DNA of 11,963 nt from Pseudomonadota bacterium. Lineage in GTDB: Bacteria > Pseudomonadota > Alphaproteobacteria > Acetobacterales > Acetobacteraceae. Below the pieces are notes generated by a model that searched no databases, had not been told where the DNA came from, and saw only the letters and a program-made list of their open reading frames with translations. Where the stretch lies: the NCBI GenBank assembly GCA_021845835.1, contig JAJZVE010000071.1:1-11963 (forward strand), read 5' to 3'. Shown piece after piece: positions 102 through 11,810 of this stretch. How positions within the stretch are numbered: the first letter of the stretch is position 1; each line of letters starts with the position of its first letter. Position numbers and translations under genes: made by a program.

Positions 102-419
102 TTATTCGCGCGTTGTCATTTCCGGCAAGGAGCGACGCACGAGCAGCATGGCGTCATGAGTGACGATTTCTTTCGGGGGCTCGCCCAGGCTCGCAAGGCC
201 GAGACCGCCGTTGGCGGCAATGTCGGCCCAGGTCATGACGATGCTGCCACGGCGCAACTGGCCGTACCAATCGGCAAGCACCTCCCAAAGCCTGGCGCGC
301 ACCCCGGCGCTCACGCGCGGATGGGCATAGATGCCTGGCGCCAGTTCCAGCATGGCCGAACCAAGAAAGCCACGGTAGCGCGCCTCCACATCGCGGGTAA
401 TGACCACCACCATCGGCAT
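102..419 (-). CDS. cas2: Type I-E CRISPR-associated Cas2 (Cas2e)
   Basis: This 105-aa protein is the bridging subunit of the Cas1-Cas2 integrase, which places new spacers at the leader end of the array. It begins MPMVVVITRDVEARYRGFLG and contains the segment YGQLRRGSIVMTWADI. Both resemble E. coli Cas2 of the I-E subtype, in which the ferredoxin-like core carries a helical/strand extension that contacts Cas1. The length is close to the usual 94-105 aa. Its ATG overlaps the cas1 stop (TAATG at 421-417), which implies translational coupling. The TAA stop lies at 104-102, followed directly by the leader. The gene appears intact. Confidence 0.95.
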   Translation of the reverse strand: MPMVVVITRDVEARYRGFLGSAMLELAPGIYAHPRVSAGVRARLWEVLADWYGQLRRGSIVMTWADIAANGGLGLASLGEPPKEIVTHDAMLLVRRSLPEMTTRE

Positions 420-1300
420 TACTCCACCTCCCCCGCGCTCTTGTCGGGAACGATCAGCAGCTTGATCCGGTCGATCATGGAGGGGATGACGCCGCGCTGG
501 CGGAACAGTTTCGCGGCACGCTGGCGGGTGAGCCGCTCGATCGAATCACCCGACTTCAGTGCCTCCTTTGCGGCACCGAAAGCGATGTCCAGGGTGACGT
601 CGTGGCGAAAGAGATCAGCGATGTCGAGAACGAAAGACTGTCCGGACTCCTCGTGGACGAAGCCCAGTTGCGGAATCGCGCCCAGGGCGGCGACCGCGAC
701 GCAAGCCGCCGCCCTCATGGCACTCGCGGCGTGATTGAGAGCCTGGTTGGGCAGATCCCCGACGCTCGGATTGGCATGGTCATAGTGCCGGCCGCGCCAG
801 GAAATGCCATGCCGCTCGGCAGCGATCTGGTAACTGCGCTTGATGCGGGCCCCTTCCTGCCCGCGCAGGACTTCGATATCGCGCGTCCGCACGATCTCGC
901 CGAAACGGATGGCATACATGGCGCGCGCGACCTCCATGCGGCTCTTCGGATCGGCCCACAGCATGACCTGCGCGCGGGCAACGCCAGAGCTGTCAGGCAT
1001 CAGGGGTGGCGCGGTGTAGAAACGCACGGCCCCTTCGCCGATGGCGGCGAGCGCGCAGCCATGGCGAGCGAGCAGGCGCAACGCATCGTGGGTAACGCTG
1101 GACCCTGGCCCCAGCAGGATGATGGAAATCGCCTGATGCGGAATCTGATAGTCTCCCGCCGCCAGCTCGCCGCCACCGGCGGTGACGAAGCGCAGGCAGC
1201 CGTCTTCGACTTCCAGCCGTCCCCGATCCAGCCACACCAGCCCGTGCCGGTCGGCGTGGGGAATGCGTGCTTTCTCCAGCCCCAGCCGCCCGAGCAGCAT
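419..1300 (-). CDS. cas1: Type I-E CRISPR-associated endonuclease/integrase Cas1
   Basis: This 293-aa protein is the catalytic subunit of the spacer-acquisition integrase. The N-terminal beta domain runs to about residue 95 and the helical catalytic domain follows. The expected metal ligands of the E. coli I-E enzyme (E141, H208, D221) correspond to E149 in VLRGQEGARIKRSY and to H216 and D229 in the block LGFVHEESGQSFVLDIADLF. D226 matches the additional acidic residue. All are present, so the enzyme should be active. The start ATG at 1300 is preceded by GAGAGG inside the end of cas6e, and only 2 nt separate the two genes. The stop overlaps the cas2 start by one base. Confidence 0.97.
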   Translation of the reverse strand: MLLGRLGLEKARIPHADRHGLVWLDRGRLEVEDGCLRFVTAGGGELAAGDYQIPHQAISIILLGPGSSVTHDALRLLARHGCALAAIGEGAVRFYTAPPLMPDSSGVARAQVMLWADPKSRMEVARAMYAIRFGEIVRTRDIEVLRGQEGARIKRSYQIAAERHGISWRGRHYDHANPSVGDLPNQALNHAASAMRAAACVAVAALGAIPQLGFVHEESGQSFVLDIADLFRHDVTLDIAFGAAKEALKSGDSIERLTRQRAAKLFRQRGVIPSMIDRIKLLIVPDKSAGEVE

Positions 1301-1302
1301 GG

Positions 1303-2025
1303 CTACCTCTCACCGGGCCGCAAGAGCAGCATACCGTAACCATAGGCGGTATGACGGCCGATGCCTTTTGCCAGACGCTCGGCGAATGCATCGCCGTCAC
1401 GGATGACGAGCCCGCCATGGAACGTCACATCCGGCCCTTCACGTCTTTTGCCGTTGCGAGAGGCAGTGCTGCGTTCAAGACTGACGAGCCGCGCCTGCGT
1501 CACCTTGGCGGCTTCACCCAATCGCTCGGCGAGCCAGTGGCAATACACGGTCTCGCGGTCGATTTTGTCATCAGGTTGGGGACCGTCGGGATGGCGGCGG
1601 AGAGCTTCCAGCAAAAAGGCATCGACCTCAGCGCCTTTGGGAAAGACGCCTGCGGGCTTCATCAGGCGTCTGACCGGCCGCACCCGCAAATCGAAGGCGA
1701 GGCGGCGACCTTTGGTCCATGTCTCCGGCATGGCTTTGGCGGCAAGCCGGGTTGGATCGCAGATTGCGAGCGCATCGGGCATCCCGGTTTCCTGGGCGGT
1801 TTGCACGAGCGATGCCTGGTCCATTTCGGTGTAAGCATAGAGCGTGGCGTTCGCTGCGCCGGGCGCGACCATCAGACGGAAAGGTTGCAGCGCCGCTTTG
1901 CCGAAGCTCTCACCGAGCAGATGATGCAGCGCGGCGCCCTCATCCATAATCAGGTTGCGATGCGCCGCCCAGCGGCGGAACGACCGCAGGTCCAACGGTA
2001 GGCTGATCAGATGGAGCGCCGTCAT
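1303..2025 (-). CDS. cas6e: Type I-E pre-crRNA endoribonuclease Cas6e (CasE/Cse3)
   Basis: This 240-aa protein binds the repeat hairpin and cuts just after its stem, leaving an 8-nt 5' handle on each crRNA. It remains bound in Cascade. The N-terminus MTALHLISLPLDL, the LHHLLGE segment (candidate catalytic H35, aligned with E. coli H26) and the C-terminal glycine-rich loop GIGRHTAYGYGMLLLRP fit the tandem ferredoxin-fold Cas6e family. Length is typical at about 200-240 aa. Its ATG overlaps the cas5e stop (ATGA, 2025-2022). It should process both the array and the repeat-like hairpins at 6042-6132. Assignment of the catalytic histidine is by eye. Confidence 0.95.
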   Translation of the reverse strand: MTALHLISLPLDLRSFRRWAAHRNLIMDEGAALHHLLGESFGKAALQPFRLMVAPGAANATLYAYTEMDQASLVQTAQETGMPDALAICDPTRLAAKAMPETWTKGRRLAFDLRVRPVRRLMKPAGVFPKGAEVDAFLLEALRRHPDGPQPDDKIDRETVYCHWLAERLGEAAKVTQARLVSLERSTASRNGKRREGPDVTFHGGLVIRDGDAFAERLAKGIGRHTAYGYGMLLLRPGER

Positions 2026-2756
2026 ACGGCGGCCGCTTGCGGCAGGAGGACGCCTTCGACGATCTTGCGTGTGCCGCCATGCAGCCCGGTGCGCCAGTTA
2101 CGTAGGTCCGGCAAATCGATGATGCGATGGACCGTGTCGCCTTCGGAGGGCCCTTCGCCAAGGGGCCAGAGCGCCCGCAACCGCTCTGCGGCATCCTCTT
2201 GCCGGGGAAATTTTTGTAACGCCGCATAAGCGGTTGGCGCCGTGACGAAATCCTTCTGCCGCAAGGGGGCGGACGGCAGGCAAGGCTTGCGGCCGATGAA
2301 CAACGGCCGCGCCGGACGATCCAGCGCCGCCGCGAGCGCATCAAGCGTGAGTTCGCTTTCTGCCGGCGCCAACCGCAAGGCCACAATCATGCAGACGTCC
2401 GGGTGATAGTCGCGCTGGCGGCGATGAGGGGCGCCATAGCTCGCCCCATTGCGTCCCTCGGGCGCTCCCCATGTGGTCCAACCTTTGTCGTTTTTGTCCA
2501 ACTTGGCGTTCTGGGTATCGGTAAGCACGCCAGAGCCACCCTCCCGCTCCCAGCGGGCGGCGAAAATCAGCCGGTCCTGCAGGGCCTGATGCGCTTCCCA
2601 TTCGGTCCGCCGCCAGCCCAGCGCGTTGGCCAGCAGACCGGTCAGCATCGAGACGGCCGGAAAGTCGCGCGTGACGCCCATATGATCGATCGCCACACCG
2701 CCAAAAGCCAGAAGCGGCGCTTCCAGCCTGAGAATCAGCCAGCGATGATCAGGCAT
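2022..2756 (-). CDS. cas5e: Type I-E Cascade subunit Cas5e (CasD)
   Basis: This 244-aa RAMP protein caps the 5' handle of the crRNA at the base of Cascade and contacts Cse1. The N-terminal strand followed by LLAFGGVAIDHMGVTRDFPA is characteristic: in the family LQSWG-type and TRDFPS-type blocks sit near residues 15-35. The central block GRNGASYGAPHRRQRDYHPD and the later RPLFIGRKPCLPSAPL are strong Cas5e signatures. Length matches the family (about 225-250 aa). It overlaps cas7e by 8 bp upstream and cas6e by 4 bp downstream, consistent with one coupled operon. No defect is visible. Confidence 0.95.
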   Translation of the reverse strand: MPDHRWLILRLEAPLLAFGGVAIDHMGVTRDFPAVSMLTGLLANALGWRRTEWEAHQALQDRLIFAARWEREGGSGVLTDTQNAKLDKNDKGWTTWGAPEGRNGASYGAPHRRQRDYHPDVCMIVALRLAPAESELTLDALAAALDRPARPLFIGRKPCLPSAPLRQKDFVTAPTAYAALQKFPRQEDAAERLRALWPLGEGPSEGDTVHRIIDLPDLRNWRTGLHGGTRKIVEGVLLPQAAAV

Positions 2757-3885
2757 CCGGCGCGTCTTTCACCTGTGAAGCGCCCCATGCCGCCAGCGCC
2801 TTGAGTGAAATCCGTTCCGAGCCGCTCAATGGCGTGTCGGCAACGGAGAGGTAACGGCGCAACTCGCCGGTTTCATAGGTTTCGTCGAGCCGCGCGAGAT
2901 GGCTATCGAGCGCCGTGACCGCCTGGTCGAGATCATGGGCAACCGGCTTGCGATAAGCAGCGGCGAGGCTGCGCGGCTGGCGGTCGCCCGCTTCGATCAG
3001 CATCAGTTCGGCGCGGCCATAGGGCGCGGTCGAGCCGCGTTTGGCGCCGGGCGAAACCTCGGCGATCAGGTGAACAAGATTATGGACCACCCGGGCGGCC
3101 AGATCCCGGTCGCGACCGCAATTGGCGGTCAAGCCCGGCAGGTCGATCACCACGTAGCCGTAGAACAGGCCGGAGGTGAGTTCGGTTTCCTGGATGGTGT
3201 CGGCGCCGCTGTCGTCCTCGTCCTTTTTCAGATCATCGACCGCCGTGAAATAATCGCCTTCGGCTTCCTCGGCGTGGACGGTGAAAGCATGGGCCACATG
3301 CAGCGGCGCTTCGATATTGGCCGCCGGGTCGGAGGTGACCATGCGCCCGAACAGAGCGGCGGTCAGACCGCCGGGCAGGATGCTTGCTTCGCGCAAAACT
3401 TTGATGTTGTCCTTGAAAGCCTTGGCCCAGTCGTTGACCGCTACTTTCGCCTCCTTGGCGTCGTTCGTCGCGGCAGCAAGACGTTCGGCCTCGGCCGCGA
3501 GCCAAGAGATTTCAGGTGCGCCGAACAGAAGGGTCTGGCGGCTCTTCTTGCCCTTGTCGGCCTTGTCGCCGTAAACGGCCTTCTGAAATTCCGGTTCGAG
3601 GGCATCGACGATCTCGTCGGCATATCGGCCCCTGAGCGGCTCGATCACCAGTTCGGTAACCAGTTCGCGCGAGCGATAGGCGAGTTTGGCACCGTCGATG
3701 CCGTGCAAGGCATGCGGATCCTTGTCTGCTTTTCGCCAGTGGCGCTTTAGGCATTGCGAGGAAATGCGGGTGCGGAAGGCGCCACCATAGGGTAGGCGCT
3801 TGGCGAGTCCGGTGTCGTCACGGTTCAGCAATGCGGCGGTATAGGAATGCAGCGTGTGGATTTGCAGAAAGCGGGGGGCGGTCAT
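2749..3885 (-). CDS. cas7e: Type I-E Cascade backbone subunit Cas7e (CasC/Cse4)
   Basis: This 378-aa protein forms the six-copy backbone that wraps the crRNA spacer. In E. coli Cascade the thumb of each Cas7 flips out every sixth crRNA base. The N-terminus FLQIHTLHSYTAALLNRDD, then GLAKRLPYGGAFRTRISSQC (residues about 27-46), and later GLFYGYVVIDLPGL and GAKRGSTAPYGRAELMLIE are diagnostic of the Cse4/CasC family. Length is slightly above E. coli CasC (363 aa). The region around residues 215-235 (DDLKKDEDDSGADT) is an acidic insert. The ATG overlaps the cse2 stop by one base (TGATG), indicating coupling. Confidence 0.97.
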   Translation of the reverse strand: MTAPRFLQIHTLHSYTAALLNRDDTGLAKRLPYGGAFRTRISSQCLKRHWRKADKDPHALHGIDGAKLAYRSRELVTELVIEPLRGRYADEIVDALEPEFQKAVYGDKADKGKKSRQTLLFGAPEISWLAAEAERLAAATNDAKEAKVAVNDWAKAFKDNIKVLREASILPGGLTAALFGRMVTSDPAANIEAPLHVAHAFTVHAEEAEGDYFTAVDDLKKDEDDSGADTIQETELTSGLFYGYVVIDLPGLTANCGRDRDLAARVVHNLVHLIAEVSPGAKRGSTAPYGRAELMLIEAGDRQPRSLAAAYRKPVAHDLDQAVTALDSHLARLDETYETGELRRYLSVADTPLSGSERISLKALAAWGASQVKDAPDA

Positions 3886-4460
3886 CAGGCATCTTCCTTT
3901 TGCTTGGCTTCATGCGCCGCGTGATCGAGCCGCCGGTAATAGGCGCGGGCAATATCGCGTGGGGTGGATGTGCTGGCGGGAAACAGAAGCAGCGCGGCGA
4001 TCGCGGCGCAGTCGAAACCGCTTTCGGATTTGCGGCGCGCCGCCAGCATCCGCGCGATGCGTTCCAGCGTCTCGGCCCGCCGATCGGATTCCGCCAAGAA
4101 GCGCATCAGCCGGGTTTCGGAAAGCAACGGTCGCGCTTCGGCGCCCCAGGCAGGATCGCCGCCATCGCAGAGTGAGGCGCCGAGGCGCTGTTTGGGATCA
4201 TGCACAGCCGGCGCCCCCGTCCGTTCACCCTTGGGCGTCAGGATCGCCATGATTTTGACGATCCTCATCCAGGCGTCGGTTCGATTCGCTTCCTCGATGA
4301 AGCCGCACGCGGCCGCCAGACGCCAGAAGGCCGCACAACCCGGCCCGTCGGGCGCCATGCGGCGCAATTCGGCGAGGTCGCCGGTGCCGAGTGGACGCAT
4401 CGCCACGGACAATTTGCCGATTACGGCTTTATAGTCGGCCTTGTTGTTCTCAATCGACAT
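3885..4460 (-). CDS. cse2: Type I-E Cascade small subunit Cse2 (CasB/Cas11)
   Basis: This 191-aa protein is the small all-helical subunit, present as a dimer along the Cascade belly where it stabilises the R-loop. I chose the ATG at 4460 (MSIENNKADYKAVIGKL) because a strong GGAGGAG lies 7 nt upstream. The reading frame stays open farther upstream, but there it overlaps cse1 deeply. The segments RRMAPDGPGCAAFWRL and a basic C-terminal part (LARRKSES, ARAYYRRLDHA) fit CasB proteins. It overlaps the last 11 bp of cse1 and meets cas7e at TGATG. Length is within the family's range (about 160-200 aa). Confidence 0.93.
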   Translation of the reverse strand: MSIENNKADYKAVIGKLSVAMRPLGTGDLAELRRMAPDGPGCAAFWRLAAACGFIEEANRTDAWMRIVKIMAILTPKGERTGAPAVHDPKQRLGASLCDGGDPAWGAEARPLLSETRLMRFLAESDRRAETLERIARMLAARRKSESGFDCAAIAALLLFPASTSTPRDIARAYYRRLDHAAHEAKQKEDA

Positions 4461-6024
4461 GATCGGACTCCTCCAGCTCCGGTTGATCGAACAGCTCCGG
4501 ATGGCGATACCGAATAGTGCTGTAAAAGGCGCGGCGCGCCCTGGCCTCGGCGCGGGGGCGGAACACGCCGGCACAGGGGATGGCGGGTAGCGCGGTTTCG
4601 AACGCGGCCCTGGCGAAACCATACAGCGTCCTGGCCCAGCGCAGCCTTGCCGCCTCCAGCGCCTCCGGCCCCTTGTCTCGCGCCTCCAGACGATCCCAGA
4701 GATGTTCGAAAAAAACGCCGTCCACGGCGTGGTCGAAGCGGCGTTGAGCTTCGCGTGCGTGGGTATAATGATCCTTTTTTCGCTTTTCCCGCTCGCCGCG
4801 CGCCGCGGCCAGCGCCAGGCTGCCGCCGATCGCCTTGTCGAAGACGGCGATCGTCTCGGTCTGTGCCTTCGCAAGCTCGTGCAGTTGCTCGCGCTTCGTG
4901 CCCAGGGCGCGCGAGATTTTGCCGGCAATCGGTAAAATACGGGACTTGAATCCTTCGGTCTTGCTGTTGCCGCGCGCCAGCGCTTCGGCGATCAGCGCCA
5001 TCGTTTCCCGTTCGCCGTCGCAACCGGCCGGCCGGGCGAGTAGCGGCATCTCCCAGTTGCCTGACAGGAGGAGTTCGACAAGCGTCCCATAGTCGAAGTC
5101 ACGGCCGGCCAAGGTGAAGCTCTTGTTGTCGGTCTTGTGAACCGGAGCGAATGGGTCGCCCAACGCACCGTTCAGGTGCTTGGCGTTGATCCGCGTGGTT
5201 TTTGATGTGCCCTTCCACCCGGACAGAACGCCGCCCGCCATGGTCAGCCGAACCCGTCGGCAGACCTCGATGAACCAGAGATCCATATCCTTGAGCTGCA
5301 TCTGGCCGCCCTCGGGCCAGGGCGCAAGCCAGGTCAGGCCAGTGCCGTTTTTGGCATAAAACTCATATCGCTCAAGCTCGCTCTCATACGTGTCGAGAAG
5401 TACAGTCACGTCCCGCCGGAACCGGGCGCCAAGGCGCGGCGTCATGTCTTTGCCTGTCCCTGTCGGTAACGGCGCGAGTGCCAGCATGGGGCGCGAGGAC
5501 GACCCGCCATTCATCCGCGCGATGCCTTGATTGCCCGCCCCGCCATAGCCTTCCCCCGTCTGCAACGACACCAGCGCGAACAGCCAGTCCTCCGGCTCGG
5601 CCTGCCGGGCGACGTCCTGCTTGAGGTCGTGATTTTTCGACGTGATGAGCAGGTCGAGCGCATCGGGGGTGGACACAGGATTACCCAGCGTCACACCCTC
5701 GGGCACCGGCGGCTGAAGCAACGCCGGTCGTGTCCAGTCATCAACGACGAGGTGCCACGGCTCGTCCGCCGCAAAGCCGGGCGTCAGGTCGCGCAAGGCG
5801 GAGACCCAAGTTTCTTCGTCTTCGAAAATTTCGGTTTTGCCCGAACGTCGCAGCGCCAGCGCCGCGAGTTGCACCAGAAACATGTGCCAGCTCGGCCCCT
5901 GATGCGGACGCAACGCCGGAAAACTGTCCACCGCGTCACGCGCCAGAACGGCGAACAGGCCGGGCAGCGTAAGCTGATCATTCGGCACGGCCTGGATCAG
6001 CGGTTGGGTGAGCAGATTATACAT
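4450..6024 (-). CDS. cse1: Type I-E Cascade large subunit Cse1 (CasA/Cas8e)
   Basis: This 524-aa protein recognises the PAM, opens the DNA and recruits Cas3. It starts MYNLLTQPLIQAV, close to the usual N-terminus MNLLxxxWIPV. It carries HQGPSWHMFLVQLAALALRR (residues 41-60) and the glycine-rich block GYGGAGNQGIARMNGG (159-174), conserved in Cse1. The C-terminal four-helix bundle follows about residue 370. Length is near E. coli Cse1 (502 aa). The ATG at 6024 has no clear Shine-Dalgarno (only GGGTGGGTGA before it). It abuts the TGA of an upstream 67-codon ORF, so it may depend on coupling. It lies 25 nt after a perfect Cas6e hairpin and about 265 nt after the predicted promoter. Confidence 0.96.
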   Translation of the reverse strand: MYNLLTQPLIQAVPNDQLTLPGLFAVLARDAVDSFPALRPHQGPSWHMFLVQLAALALRRSGKTEIFEDEETWVSALRDLTPGFAADEPWHLVVDDWTRPALLQPPVPEGVTLGNPVSTPDALDLLITSKNHDLKQDVARQAEPEDWLFALVSLQTGEGYGGAGNQGIARMNGGSSSRPMLALAPLPTGTGKDMTPRLGARFRRDVTVLLDTYESELERYEFYAKNGTGLTWLAPWPEGGQMQLKDMDLWFIEVCRRVRLTMAGGVLSGWKGTSKTTRINAKHLNGALGDPFAPVHKTDNKSFTLAGRDFDYGTLVELLLSGNWEMPLLARPAGCDGERETMALIAEALARGNSKTEGFKSRILPIAGKISRALGTKREQLHELAKAQTETIAVFDKAIGGSLALAAARGEREKRKKDHYTHAREAQRRFDHAVDGVFFEHLWDRLEARDKGPEALEAARLRWARTLYGFARAAFETALPAIPCAGVFRPRAEARARRAFYSTIRYRHPELFDQPELEESDHVD

Positions 6025-6228
6025 TCACCCACCCAACCCAATGCTGAACCCCCGCATGTGCGGGGAAACAAGCCGATTTCGGTTCTGTATCAGATCGAAA
6101 TAGGGCCTATCCCAAGCTGCGTCCTGGGAATCATCTATCGCCGCCGGCACAACTTGCGCATGACGGCCAATCGGCAATGCAAGCGGATGCGTTATGGTTT
6201 TGATGCAAGCAAGAAAACCGGTGTTCAT
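6025..6228 (-). CDS. Possible 67-codon leader ORF upstream of cse1
   Basis: ATG at 6228 is preceded by GGGAGGAA (6240-6233) at an ideal 6-nt spacing, the best ribosome site in this gap. The frame (MNTGFLACIKTITHPLALP...) runs through both pseudo-repeats and the pseudo-spacer. It ends in TGA at 6027-6025, immediately followed by the cse1 ATG (TGAATG). No family is recognised. Third-position GC is only about half, far below the flanking cas genes, so the amino-acid sequence is probably not selected. It may act as a translational coupler for cse1, be the start region of a CreT-like toxin RNA, or be chance. I favour a regulatory role over a functional protein. Confidence 0.3.
   Translation of the reverse strand: MNTGFLACIKTITHPLALPIGRHAQVVPAAIDDSQDAAWDRPYFDLIQNRNRLVSPHMRGFSIGLGG
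6042..6070 (-). repeat. Downstream degenerate CRISPR repeat (keeps Cas6e hairpin)
   Basis: Aligned to the array repeat at 14-42, 21 of 29 positions agree, including an unbroken 16-nt core CCCCGCACATGCGGGG at 6065-6050. The 3' handle region is degraded (GTTCAGCA instead of ATAGGCCC), so the repeat can end a guide but would start a poor one. It lies 25 nt upstream of the cse1 ATG. Confidence 0.88.
6103..6132 (-). repeat. Upstream degenerate CRISPR repeat (keeps 5' handle, re-paired stem)
   Basis: On the minus strand it begins GATTCCCAGG and its last 11 nt, GGGATAGGCCC, equal the end of the array repeat. The stem sequence has diverged but still pairs: CCCAGG with CTTGGG (one G-U wobble), extended by an outer T-A pair. 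Cas6e cleavage after the stem would therefore still yield ATAGGCCC. Retained pairing despite sequence change argues for selection on structure. Confidence 0.8.
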
Positions 6229-6239
6229 GCCGTTCCTCC

Positions 6240-6269
6240 CGTTGATGGGTTACCTTAACGACATCAACG
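6240..6269 (-). promoter_or_regulatory. Inverted repeat abutting a Shine-Dalgarno in the cse1 leader
   Basis: CGTTGATG (6269-6262) and CATCAACG (6247-6240) are perfect 8-bp arms. An inner GTTA/TAAC pair lies between them, closing on AGG. In RNA this forms a two-part stem-loop that ends directly at the GGGAGGAA ribosome site. In DNA it is an operator-like palindrome downstream of the predicted promoter. There is no U-tract, so it is not a standard terminator. Confidence 0.6.
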
Positions 6270-6280
6270 AGAAATACAAT

Positions 6281-6315
6281 AACTATTTTGATCTGATAAT
6301 ACCAGTCCGCCCATA
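6281..6315 (+). promoter_or_regulatory. Predicted Cascade binding site for the pseudo-spacer guide
   Basis: AAC at 6281-6283 is a plausible I-E PAM: some I-E systems accept AA followed by any base, and AAG is the E. coli favourite. TATTTTGATCTGATA at 6284-6298 agrees with guide positions 1-5 and 7-15. Position 6 differs, a base that is flipped out of the helix in I-E Cascade. Positions 16-32 match no better than chance, as expected for a site that is bound without triggering stable Cas3 degradation. The 32-bp footprint spans the cas3 stop codon and the predicted -10 box. Confidence 0.8.
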
Positions 6316-8877
6316 CAGAAAGTCAACGTCTCCAACCTTCAACCGAATCATCCCACCATCCACCACCGGCTCCACCGCTTCGCGGGAATCGATGCCTCCT
6401 GACAGGTGGTCGGGCAAAGTGAAGCCGCTAATCATCTCGCCAAACAGCCCGCGGATCGGCGTGGCAAAGGTGATGCGCGCACCTTCCGCGCCTAACCGGG
6501 TGCGGATTTTTTCCTCATTTCCGGGAAACCGCAGGTCGGCAAAGGGTGTATCGATCGGCATCGCGATACCCTTGGCTGCCATCGCGTCGGCCACGTCCTT
6601 GCCGTAGATGTTGTACCAATAATCCGCCCAATCTTTGCCGAGTTCGGCATTGAGCATCTCGATCCGAACGGGATGCGTCGCGCTTTCGACGAGAAGTCGG
6701 TTCATGTAGGGAATGACCCATTCCGGATGGGTTTCTATGAGCCGTCGCGTCAGCTCCAACCCCGAGACATCGCGGTAAATGCCATTAAGAACGCCAGCGT
6801 CTTTCCAGGCGCCAAGCCCGTTTTCGAAGGCGGGTGCGAGCAGTCTCGCCAATCCCTGTTCCGGTGTCATGACGTGGCATCGGGCGATTTCGAAGCCCGG
6901 CGGCCGGGCAAGCCGATGGCGATGCAGCCTGCCGATGCGCTGGAGCAGGACATCGACAGGGCAGAGGTCGGTCAGAAGGCAATCAGCGTCGATATCGAGG
7001 CTCTGCTCGAGCGTCTGAGTGCCAATGACGATCACCCCGCCTGGTTTGCGTTCATGCGGCGACAATGCGGCTTCCACCGCCTGATCGAGCAACGCGCGGT
7101 CCTCCGGCGCAAACCGGCCATGATGCAGCGCGGGGCCGTCCGCCACCTGCATGAGCAGGATTTCGCCCACCTGCCGCACCGCCTCGAACGTATCGACGGC
7201 AGCCGTCACCGTGTTGCGGATGACGAGCACACGCGCACCTTCCCGCGCCGCGTCCATGGCGATGCGCGCCACCGCCTCGGCCGCCATCGTCGGCACCAGC
7301 GCCATGGCGACGGTTTTTTGCCCCTTCTCCCTCTCCTGCGCGCCACACCCGCGCGGCGTTGCCTCGCTTTTGCCCCACACCGCCGGATAAGGCGCCGCCA
7401 GCGCTTCTTCAAAGGACGGCCTTTGCTTACGCCCCAGCCATTTCGTCCGCGCGACCGACCCCAGCGTCGCCGACATCAGCATCCCATGACCGCCGCGCCC
7501 GAGATGCATCCGGAGCAGGTGGTTCTGCACCTCCGTCATATAGCGGTCGGAAGCGTGAACCTCATCGATCACGAGGAAACCGCGCGAGAGCGCCGCGGCA
7601 CGCAGATGGGCGTGCTTGACCTGCAAGGCAGCGAGCATGGCCTGATCGACCGTGCCAACGGCGACCGTCGCGGCCAGCGCGCGTTTGGTGCTTTCCGCCG
7701 CCCAGCGCGCCAGCAGAAGCGCCTCGTCCGCATCGTCATCCCAGCGCACCTGCCAGTCGGGCAATTTCTGCCCCTCGACCTCACCGGCCCGAAGATAGCC
7801 CGGAACGACGAGAACCGCTTCGGGCCCGCCCCCATCGAACAACCGCCCCATCATCTTGTTCACCCGCCGATGCAATTGGATGGCCGCGGCCCGGGTGGGC
7901 AGTGCGAAATAGAGGCTGTCCACCAGCCCGGCCTCGAACAGGCGCGCAAACCGCCACAATGCCGCTTCGGTCTTTCCCGAACCGGTTTCGGCTTCCAGGA
8001 TGACGAGCGGTTCTTCGAGCGGAAATTCGCCGATCAGGCGTTGCTGCGGTCGCGGCGGCTTGCCTTCGGTGAGCGTCGCGAAATCGGTCCGTCCCGACGC
8101 CAGATCGCGAAAGCGGCGTGTATCGAAGCCGATATCCGCCACCGCTTGGCGCGCTTTGCCGCGAGCCTTCTCGATATACTGGCCGTCGAGATGGGCAACG
8201 AAATTAAAGATGCCCTTGGTCGATCCCAGCCAGTCGGCGAGGGAGACGAGGCCGCACAACAGATGTTGGAAACCCGACACTGTGGGCAGTGGCGTCCCAT
8301 CGCTGGTTTCAAAAGCCTCGGGAAACCACGACCGAAGCAAAACGCCGATTTCGGCGGATGACGCCACCGGATCATAGCCGAGTGCCGGAACGCTTTGCCA
8401 CTGCTTCCCCGCGCGGTCCTCCTTCTCCAGCGCGAAGGGCCGACCATGATGGGCCAGAACGGCAAAGAGGAGGTGTTCGTCGACCCCCCAGTCCCCCAAC
8501 CGGTCGCAATGCAGATTCCGCCTGATCTCTTCCGGCGCATGGCCGCAAAAAATCGCCGCACCCTCCCGCACATGCCCATGAGTTTCGCCACGCCACGCGC
8601 CGTGCGGCCAGCCCTTGGCCTGAAAACCGGGATGCAGCTTGCCGGCGTCATGCAGAAAAACCAGAACGGCAAGGCGCGCGATCTGGGTGTGCGACAACGA
8701 TCCGCCCGCCGCTCGTTCCATCCGGGCGCGCACCACCGGCAAAGTCGCCATGGCCTCGAAACAAGCCGCGACATCGGCGCAATGATGCGCCAGATGATGG
8801 CTTTCCTCGTCGCCGGTTTTCCCCCATGGGGCGCTATACCGCATATCGATCGCCACAACTCCGTCTGAATTAGCCAA
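6283..8877 (-). CDS. cas3: Type I-E CRISPR-associated nuclease-helicase Cas3
   Basis: This 864-aa protein is recruited by Cascade to nick and unwind target DNA. The N-terminal HD nuclease domain shows HHLAHH (27-32), FLHD (74-77), LAHHG (141-145) and LADW (213-216). The helicase part has Walker A ETGSGKT (297-303), DEVH (438-441), SAT (469-471) and QRIGRLHRH (646-654). All key residues are present and the length is near E. coli Cas3 (888 aa). The start used is TTG at 8877 with AAAGG 5 nt upstream; an alternative is ATG at residue 12. The start is 22 bp after the toxin stop codon with no separate promoter seen, so cas3 may be transcribed with the toxin-antitoxin pair. Its last codons overlap the cse1 regulatory region. 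Confidence 0.96.
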   Translation of the reverse strand: MANSDGVVAIDMRYSAPWGKTGDEESHHLAHHCADVAACFEAMATLPVVRARMERAAGGSLSHTQIARLAVLVFLHDAGKLHPGFQAKGWPHGAWRGETHGHVREGAAIFCGHAPEEIRRNLHCDRLGDWGVDEHLLFAVLAHHGRPFALEKEDRAGKQWQSVPALGYDPVASSAEIGVLLRSWFPEAFETSDGTPLPTVSGFQHLLCGLVSLADWLGSTKGIFNFVAHLDGQYIEKARGKARQAVADIGFDTRRFRDLASGRTDFATLTEGKPPRPQQRLIGEFPLEEPLVILEAETGSGKTEAALWRFARLFEAGLVDSLYFALPTRAAAIQLHRRVNKMMGRLFDGGGPEAVLVVPGYLRAGEVEGQKLPDWQVRWDDDADEALLLARWAAESTKRALAATVAVGTVDQAMLAALQVKHAHLRAAALSRGFLVIDEVHASDRYMTEVQNHLLRMHLGRGGHGMLMSATLGSVARTKWLGRKQRPSFEEALAAPYPAVWGKSEATPRGCGAQEREKGQKTVAMALVPTMAAEAVARIAMDAAREGARVLVIRNTVTAAVDTFEAVRQVGEILLMQVADGPALHHGRFAPEDRALLDQAVEAALSPHERKPGGVIVIGTQTLEQSLDIDADCLLTDLCPVDVLLQRIGRLHRHRLARPPGFEIARCHVMTPEQGLARLLAPAFENGLGAWKDAGVLNGIYRDVSGLELTRRLIETHPEWVIPYMNRLLVESATHPVRIEMLNAELGKDWADYWYNIYGKDVADAMAAKGIAMPIDTPFADLRFPGNEEKIRTRLGAEGARITFATPIRGLFGEMISGFTLPDHLSGGIDSREAVEPVVDGGMIRLKVGDVDFLYGRTGIIRSK
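6296..6326 (-). promoter_or_regulatory. Predicted sigma70-type promoter for cse1-cas2 inside the end of cas3
   Basis: On the minus strand TTGACT (6326-6321) is followed after 19 bp by TATTAT (6301-6296). Each hexamer has 5 of 6 consensus bases, but the spacer is 1-2 bp long. Transcription would begin near 6289 and give a leader of about 265 nt before cse1. The -10 box sits inside the predicted Cascade target. No other convincing promoter was found in the gap. Confidence 0.55.
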
Positions 8878-8899: not shown

Positions 8900-9232
8900 C
8901 TATTCCAAGATAGTTGAGAGCTTCGCCAGCACTTCATCGACAATGGCCGCCGATAGACTTTCGAGTTTGCGGCCACGCCGGGAAGCGATGTCGAGGGCGC
9001 GAGGCTGATCGCAGCGCACGACGCCGGTTGTCTGAGTGCCTGCGCCGGCCAGAGATACTGCGAAGCCTGCCGTACGGGCAAAATTGCCGCCAGTCGTGAT
9101 CGGCAGCACCACAGGCGTCTTCGTCAGGCGGTTGAATGGGCCCGGCGATACGACCAGCACAGGGCGCGTGCCCTGCTGTTCATGGCCGGACGTAGGATCG
9201 AGCGAGACGAGATAAATATCACCCCGCTCCAT
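8900..9232 (-). CDS. MazF/PemK-family endoribonuclease toxin, ChpB-like
   Basis: This 110-aa protein starts MERGDIYLVSLDPTSGHEQQ at the ATG that overlaps the antitoxin stop (ATGA); the frame is open further upstream inside the antitoxin. It is closest in pattern to ChpB/PemK: GDIYLV, then QQGTRPVLVVSP (19-30), PITTGGNFAR (45-54, with the usual catalytic Thr/Ser region) and a later VVRCDQPRALD (71-81). These toxins cleave mRNA at short motifs and are neutralised by the antitoxin encoded just before them. Length fits the family (110-120 aa). cas3 follows 22 bp later on the same strand. Confidence 0.92.
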   Translation of the reverse strand: MERGDIYLVSLDPTSGHEQQGTRPVLVVSPGPFNRLTKTPVVLPITTGGNFARTAGFAVSLAGAGTQTTGVVRCDQPRALDIASRRGRKLESLSAAIVDEVLAKLSTILE

Positions 9233-9489
9233 CACAGCAGCTCGTTGCCGACCGGCTTGGCGTCGAGCCATTTCTGATCCTCGGCGCTCAGATCGGCCGA
9301 GGGATCACATTGCGCCAGCAACTCAGCAAGCGTGTAGCGGGGCCGTGCGGACGGTTCGACCACGAGGCGGCCATTGTCCACGGCAAGTCCGACCTTGGCG
9401 CCGGCCGCCAGATGAAGAACATCGAGCAGTGCGGGAGGGACGGCGAGCATGATCGAACCTCCCACCTTGCGGAGACTTGTTGTGTGCAT
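9232..9489 (-). CDS. MazE/AbrB-family antitoxin, ChpS/PemI-like
   Basis: This 85-aa protein begins MHTTSLRKVGGSIMLAVPPA, the swapped-hairpin AbrB DNA-binding fold typical of MazE. The turn AAGAKVGLAVDNGRLVVEP is the second half of the fold. The C-terminal tail (about residues 50-85, acidic, LAELLAQCDPSADLSAEDQK) would wrap around and inhibit the toxin. A GGAAG lies 9 nt before ATG. The stop overlaps the toxin start by one base. It likely represses its own promoter through the palindrome at 9509-9526. Confidence 0.9.
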   Translation of the reverse strand: MHTTSLRKVGGSIMLAVPPALLDVLHLAAGAKVGLAVDNGRLVVEPSARPRYTLAELLAQCDPSADLSAEDQKWLDAKPVGNELL

Positions 9490-11165: not shown

Positions 11166-11405
11166 ATGGACAGCACCGTCGATGTGACCATCCCGGTTGA
11201 GCCGGAGGCCGCCAAGGCGCTCGAAAATCCTGCGCGTCGTGAGGCAGTGGGGCGCTACCTAAGCGGCCTGCTCAAGGAAGGACATATTCCCGCAGCTCTC
11301 GCGTCGGCAATCGCCGACGCCAAACGCGAGGCTCGTGCGAGGGGCCTGACGGACGAAGGCATTGACGCTGAGCTTGAGGCTTGGCGGGCCGAACGTAGAG
11401 CGTGA
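11166..11405 (+). CDS. Type II antitoxin of a PIN-toxin pair
   Basis: This 79-aa protein (MDSTVDVTIPVEPEAAKALE...) has AAGGAG 7 nt before ATG. It has a helix-rich middle (NPARREAVGRYLSGLLKEG) and a C-terminal segment ARGLTDEGIDAELEAWRAER. Small proteins of this pattern usually sit directly before PIN-family toxins. Its TGA overlaps the GTG start of the next gene (GTGA, 11402-11405), the usual coupled arrangement. I cannot name the DNA-binding fold. It looks intact even though its partner does not. Confidence 0.75.
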   Translation: MDSTVDVTIPVEPEAAKALENPARREAVGRYLSGLLKEGHIPAALASAIADAKREARARGLTDEGIDAELEAWRAERRA

Positions 11406-11810
11406 TCGTCGTCTTCGACGCCTCGACCTTCGTTTCGGCAGCCCTCAAAGCGAAAAGCCTTCCTGAGCGGGCGCTACTGCGCGCTGTGAGCGCGCCAAAC
11501 CGTCTGCTTCTGTCGCAGGCGGTTGAGGATGAATATCGCGAAGTCATTTTTCGCCCGAAGTTTGATCGCTTCGTCGCGGCCGAACGTCGTCAGCGAATCC
11601 TCGATATCGTGGTGTTTGCCGCGGAGCGGCGTCGGACCCACCGAAACTATTCGAGAGTGCCGTGACCCGAAAGATGATAAATACTTGATTTTGGCCGCCG
11701 TTGGTGGAGCAGATGTCATCGTGAGCAGCGACATACGTCACTTACTCTCGATGCACCCGTGGCGTGGGATTCCTATCCTGTCTCCAGTTAACTTTCTTGC
11801 CCTCTTTTGA
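11402..11810 (+). pseudogene. PIN-domain toxin, frameshifted
   Basis: The first frame starts at GTG 11402 (MIVVFDASTFVSAALKAKSL) and would end prematurely at 11665. The homologous continuation is in the next frame from about 11628 (GVGPTETIRECRDPKDDKY...) to the TGA at 11808-11810. Together they form a complete PIN ribonuclease of the putative-toxin family: D6, E44 in VEDEYREVI, the Asp of CRDPKDDKYL and the Asp of IVSSDIRHL are all present. Skipping one base at about 11627 restores the frame. It could be a real inactivating mutation, a sequencing error or, less likely, recoding. Both halves remain well conserved, so the shift is recent if real. Confidence 0.8.

Follow-up and report, generated by a model that had tools for sequence, protein, structure and literature searches.

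A putative CreR-type guide between cas3 and cse1 and its AAC-flanked target in an alphaproteobacterial type I-E CRISPR-Cas locus

Liu et al., writing in Cell Host Microbe in 2023, reportedly described CreRs as cas-regulating RNAs of CRISPR types I-B, I-E, and V-A. Three articles present CreRs of these types as agents of autorepression acting via partial complementarity to a promoter (PMC13131331, PMC12737573, PMC12948488). The seed is strict in E. coli except at the sixth position, according to PMC4288178, and in the CreA guide positions 6 and 12 are described as free, with position 6 unpaired, in PMC8501985. For Acidiphilium and Acetobacteraceae, no such elements were found among the titles and abstract openings searched.

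The window, which here means the whole stretch of 11,963 nucleotides analyzed, carries a type I-E CRISPR-Cas locus with cas3, cse1, cse2, cas7e, cas5e, cas6e, cas1e, and cas2e as an operon on the minus strand. The cas3 gene (6283-8877) matched NCBIfam helicase and HD domain models, and cse1 (cas8e, 4450-6024) matched TIGR02547 with 49 bits, below the cut-off of 70.05. Among the remaining genes (102-4460, minus strand), cas7e, cas5e, cas1e, and cas2e scored above their NCBIfam cut-offs, cas6e reached 44.6 bits against a cut-off of 45.2, and cse2, without an NCBIfam match, was assigned by position only. Only one CRISPR array repeat lies inside the window, GGTTCCCCCGCACATGCGGGGATAGGCCC at 14-42 on the minus strand. 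The nearest named relatives are Acidiphilium sp., with Cse1 identities of 80% (L002) and 76% (P0007). Two further features were seen near cas3 and beyond: a MazEF-like toxin-antitoxin pair directly upstream of cas3 (8900-9489, minus strand), all matches of which fall below curated cut-offs, and, by eye, open reading frames resembling a broken PIN-type toxin gene at 11402-11810 (plus strand), with a frame change near 11660.

The gap between cas3 and cse1 measures 258 nt in the window. The first-pass annotation had placed in it, at 6042-6132 and in array orientation, two diverged repeats around a 32-nt spacer, the upstream one keeping the array handle and the downstream one the full hairpin. This description stands: the unit occupies 6131-6042 of the minus strand, and exact copies of both elements recur in the array repeat. 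The upstream degenerate repeat, psi-R1 (6103-6131, minus strand), combines a 7-bp hairpin with the exact array 5' handle ATAGGCCC (6110-6103); it shares 17 of 29 bases with the array repeat, and its hairpin is formed by bases different from those of that repeat. The psi-spacer follows (6071-6102, 32 nt), with the seed and the target match in bases 1-15 (6102-6088). The downstream degenerate repeat, psi-R2 (6042-6070, minus strand), has lost the handle and kept the stem, its hairpin CCCCGCACATGCGGGG being intact at 6065-6050 and ending 25 nt before the cse1 start codon. Each element occurs twice in the window, ATAGGCCC at 14-21 (array repeat) and 6103-6110, both on the minus strand, with a chance expectation of 0.18, and CCCCGCACATGCGGGG at 22-37 and 6050-6065, with a chance expectation of 0.00. 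A 95-nt RNA from 6134 to 6040 folds better than 200 of 200 shuffles (z -3.67), and a search of Rfam gave no match at E up to 1. Cleavage of the type carried out by Cas6e in E. coli would release a mature guide RNA from 6110 to 6050 (minus strand), whose predicted 61 nt agree with the length claimed earlier.

No target had been named for this guide. One is now added at 6284-6298 on the plus strand, where 14 of 15 bases equal spacer bases 1-15, the sole guide-target mismatch being at position 6 (chance expectation of the match 0.00). The site overlaps the last codons of cas3 and is flanked by AAC (6281-6283, plus strand), a putative PAM that overlaps the cas3 stop codon, lies 256 nt from the cse1 ATG, and recurs as the same trinucleotide at the target in all ten loci used below. 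Besides the guide itself, no other site in the whole window exceeds eight of ten seed positions. A tentative promoter was read by eye, from relatives, beside the PAM (6252-6279, minus strand), with TTGTAT at 6279-6274 and a weak TAAGGT at 6257-6252. In the window, L048, and L069, an A and then TTG(TAT/ACA/ATT) come after GTT, the complement of the PAM, and L048 shows, also by eye, TTGACA-17-TTTGAT beside the target; the promoter of the window is called putative because a sigma-70 consensus scan of the gap found none. As a PAM check, array spacers were compared with plasmids and phages, which returned nothing besides a 28-nt exact match between an L031 array spacer and a Shinella replicon (NZ_CP069303.1:703146-703173).

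Type I-E loci were gathered through Cse1 searches of genomes (1992 look-ups, many repeated) and one scan each of genome contigs and plasmids; viral contigs yielded no Cse1 relative. This gave 43 loci, of which 42 were counted, L044 having no upstream sequence, and the short fragments G051, G093, and G1011 and a Hydrogenophilus plasmid match were left out of the comparison. A detector built on structure only (hairpin, handle AT...CC, second hairpin, within -700 to +60 of cse1) found the two-hairpin unit upstream of cse1 in nine of the 42, namely the window locus, L069, L034, L041, L039, L035, L042, L071, and L043. A tenth, L048 of Acidiphilium sp. PA, escaped the detector because its psi-R1 stem is poor and was added by homology; the window locus is included in the counts of both nine and ten.

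An AAC-flanked match at 8-10 of the ten seed positions is present in all nine detector loci. The match is complete in the window, L069, L034, and L043, reaches nine in L041, L039, L042, and L071 as well as in L048 (mismatch at position 3), and falls to eight in L035, a weak case equaled by 9 of 945 null spacers. When the flank is ignored, nine of ten loci still have AAC beside their best site, and in L042 AAC-flanked and CAC-flanked sites tie at nine. With 945 array spacers as null guides, 5-14 per region reach 8/10 and 0-3 reach 9/10 with AAC, and the single 10/10 among them is the guide of L034 itself. With the hairpin rule dropped, scanning the 42 loci (full handle, 9-10 of 10) recovered the nine expected loci and one chance hit, L008, with L035 below the line; a looser handle (3 of 4) brought seven more chance hits. 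Among 955 array-type sites, five have a seed hit within -600 to +30 of cse1, and AAC stands at one, again the L034 guide. Extending the two-hairpin rule to whole loci produced 956 units across the 43 loci, and AAC-flanked matches at 9-10 of 10 seed positions, no more than 900 nt away, numbered 12. Eight of these are upstream of cse1, and four, which represent the noise level, come from ordinary spacers with guides inside arrays (L072, L074, L033, L078).

Across the ten guide-target pairs, matches at positions 1 to 20 number 9, 10, 8, 10, 9, 0, 10, 9, 9, 9, 10, 2, 8, 6, 7, 5, 4, 0, 5, and 4. The high values at positions 1-5 and 7-11 prove little, because these were the search criterion; position 6 and positions 12-20 lay outside it. 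Positions 6 and 18 match in none of the ten pairs and position 12 in two, or 2/30 together, against 30/50 at positions 13-17. Both matches at position 12 come from the window and L048; these two loci are closely related, and the ten pairs therefore do not amount to ten independent cases. Judged from these alignments, the mismatch pattern is Cascade-shaped. Guide and target also vary in concert: positions 7-11 read GATCT in the window and TCTTT in L069, in guide and target alike, and seed matches to the own target sum to 93, compared with a mean of 37.6 and a best of 87 in 100,000 permutations. The expectation that the seed would be conserved between related loci was thus not borne out; it changes together with the target.

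This pattern makes it seem very improbable that the unit no longer functions and is the decaying remnant of an earlier array or of an old self-targeting spacer: across ten loci the seed matches are retained, positions 6, 12, and 18 fail, and guide and target change jointly, whereas neutral decay yields no such period. Both repeats are degenerate, as such a leftover would be, and in L034 a genuine array in the cas3-cse1 gap has the guide as its final unit. This array (L034:8829-9589) has 13 repeats and near-identical spacers, its last spacer being the self-targeting guide, and may offer a view of how such guides arise. The strands of guide and target bear on another alternative, in which the two are inverted repeats of one transcript that pair as RNA and act as an attenuator. 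They lie on opposite strands in eight of ten loci, so that cas3 read-through RNA could pair with the guide; in L041 and L035, however, guide and target share a strand and the RNAs cannot pair, and RNA pairing accounts for neither AAC nor the six-base mismatch period, which leaves this alternative with hardly any credit. The original proposal of a CreR/CreA-like Cascade guide is instead supported, at the level of sequence, by the local AAC-flanked target, the guide-target covariation, and the Cascade-type mismatch positions in ten loci.

Layout and distribution vary among these loci. The mini-array lies between target and cse1 in six (the window, L048, L069, L041, L039, and L035), where some 13-32 nt, by approximate starts, separate the end of the last hairpin from the start codon. 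In L034, L042, L043, and L071 it is the guide that comes first, upstream of the target. The last three of these, which are related, were also seen to carry long, nearly perfect hairpins between target and cse1, in the cse1 5' leader. The spacing of 32 nt given earlier applies to the window and fails as a general feature, since spacers measure about 20-22 nt in four of ten loci (L069, L041, L071, and L035). Guides of this length approach the reduction by 12 bases that would cost Cascade two Cas7 segments. E. coli Cascades with shortened spacers are reportedly the subject of a paper by Kuznedelov et al. from 2016.

In a Cse1 tree of 41 rows, in which L047 sits on a very long branch, the ten CreR-positive loci occupy four separate parts. 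The unit had been expected to be kept in related I-E loci, and this is true in part: of the ten loci, counting the window, whose Cse1 reaches 50% identity or more, three (the window, L048, and L069) have it and seven lack it. The cas3-cse1 gap of these seven is at most 32 nt in six and 286 nt in L074. The element is patchy among relatives and has therefore been gained repeatedly or lost often.

A small open reading frame of 67 codons (6228-6025, minus strand) starts between target and guide, continues across the mini-array, and ends immediately ahead of the cse1 ATG. Its ribosome site is good, GGAGG standing six bases upstream of its own ATG, and it might encode a leader peptide or a creT-like toxin. 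An open frame of this kind arises in 6% of shuffles. Between the window and L048 (67 and 68 codons), differences are spread over the three codon positions as 25/21/24, with 8 synonymous and 36 replacement changes; this even spread indicates that no protein is being conserved, and the reading as a conserved protein was rejected for this lack of coding constraint. Two metagenome proteins match the frame with opposite conservation patterns, P0002 keeping 16/33 codons before the unit and 33/34 after it, and P0001 32/33 before and 27/34 after. Selection acting only on the mini-array part of the frame fits P0002 and is contradicted by P0001, and this idea was dropped. In L069 no equivalent ORF with a ribosome site was found. 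L035 and L041, on the other hand, have a small ORF in common between target and mini-array (-316 to -91 and -301 to -88 from cse1, 74 and 70 aa), with the pattern SRSERRR..W..A.KWL...VWYR; it looks coding, with 17 synonymous codon changes and differences of 30/28/40 by codon position, and is a candidate creT-like or leader gene.

These frames bear on the alternative that a small toxin (ORF 6228-6025) is the main product of the targeted promoter, the guide being a CreA antitoxin that leaves the cell addicted to Cascade. In favor of this CreTA arrangement, the 67-codon ORF lies between target and guide; the ORF, with its ribosome site, comes after the target, L035 and L041 share their coding-looking frame at an equivalent place, and a translated CreT toxin is described for the type I-E cas3-casA gap of Citrobacter rodentium in PMC12055562. 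Against it stand the absence of coding constraint in the window and L048, the lack of an equivalent frame in L069, the opposed patterns of the two metagenome matches, and L034, where the 27 nt between the end of the target and cse1 leave no room for a toxin gene. Since CreT toxins need not be conserved, the missing ORF conservation does not dispose of CreTA, which we nevertheless regard as unlikely. The general CreR role fits all ten loci, and some lineages may add small toxins.

The explanation favored here, with good though incomplete confidence, is that the mini-array at 6131-6042 is a CreR-type guide predicted to bring the cell's own Cascade to 6284-6298 and to repress the genes from cse1 to cas2. 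The promoter beside the target would drive cse1 and, in the window, the mini-array too; Cas6e would cut both psi-repeats, and the released guide would load into Cascade. Bound through the seed, Cascade would block the promoter without Cas3 cutting, which is proposed because pairing fails past about position 15. Since Cascade would block its own promoter, free Cascade is proposed to reduce its own production, a brake that would be released once array crRNAs or anti-CRISPRs draw Cascade off, as reported for CreR elsewhere. A more specific form of CreR repression, possible but rather doubtful, is that of a governor, in which a guide in the Cascade mRNA leader would shut its own promoter, so that each cse1 transcript would bring one copy, and the Cas6e cut that frees it would also trim the cse1 leader to about two dozen bases. 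The layout that this governor needs, in which the mini-array follows the target and immediately precedes cse1, occurs in six of ten loci; in the other four, the guide is upstream.

A hidden guide is thus tied to a concrete target, and a search rule for more of them is at hand (handle, hairpin, and seed match with 6, 12, and 18 free, AAC within a few hundred bases). The loci provide natural guide-target pairs that co-evolve in at least four parts of the Cse1 tree, as well as natural short guides for the study of Cascade size, and Cascade autoregulation in alphaproteobacterial type I-E systems becomes directly testable.

Among known systems, tracr-L of Streptococcus pyogenes type II-A is alike in that a crRNA-like RNA with an 11-nt match directs the effector, without cleavage, to the promoter of its own cas genes, and differs in using Cas9 and tracrRNA where Cascade and a mini-array would act here (PMC8616872). 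The CreTA of C. rodentium, as described in PMC12055562, shares the type I-E context, the cas3-casA gap, and a psi-spacer target that overlaps a promoter element, a putative one in the window; its guide precedes the ORF and lies on the other strand, its PAM is ATG, and its ORF is toxic, whereas in the window guide and cse1 are on one strand. CreTA/CreA of Haloarcula and Halobacterium hubeiense (PMC8501985, PMC9458426) resembles the window unit in two divergent psi-repeats that supply a 5' handle of 8 nt and a 3' handle, in a seed that pairs over 1-5 and 7-11, in a PAM beside a promoter, which in the window is putative, and in a guide downstream of the targeted promoter. The features that define this guide in PMC8501985 (psi-R, psi-S, and PAM-adjacent seed pairing at 1-5 and 7-11) all have counterparts in the window, with AAC as the putative PAM; the haloarchaeal systems are of type I-B, with a TTC PAM and a demonstrated toxin, in contrast to the present loci, in which no conserved toxin was seen. 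The CreRs are presented as mini-CRISPRs in cas loci, with a partial match to a cas promoter, no obligatory toxin, and a proposed Cascade autorepression. The window likewise has, in its cas locus, a crRNA-like unit whose repeats are degenerate, and a limited seed-type match upstream of cas genes, AAC presumably serving as the working PAM. It differs in the AAC flank, the cas3-cse1 position, and a mini-array placed before the cse1 ribosome site, to which spacers of about 20-22 nt are added in four of the loci compared here. CreR guides being already reported for type I-E, the window unit would probably represent a further member of this kind with variant features.
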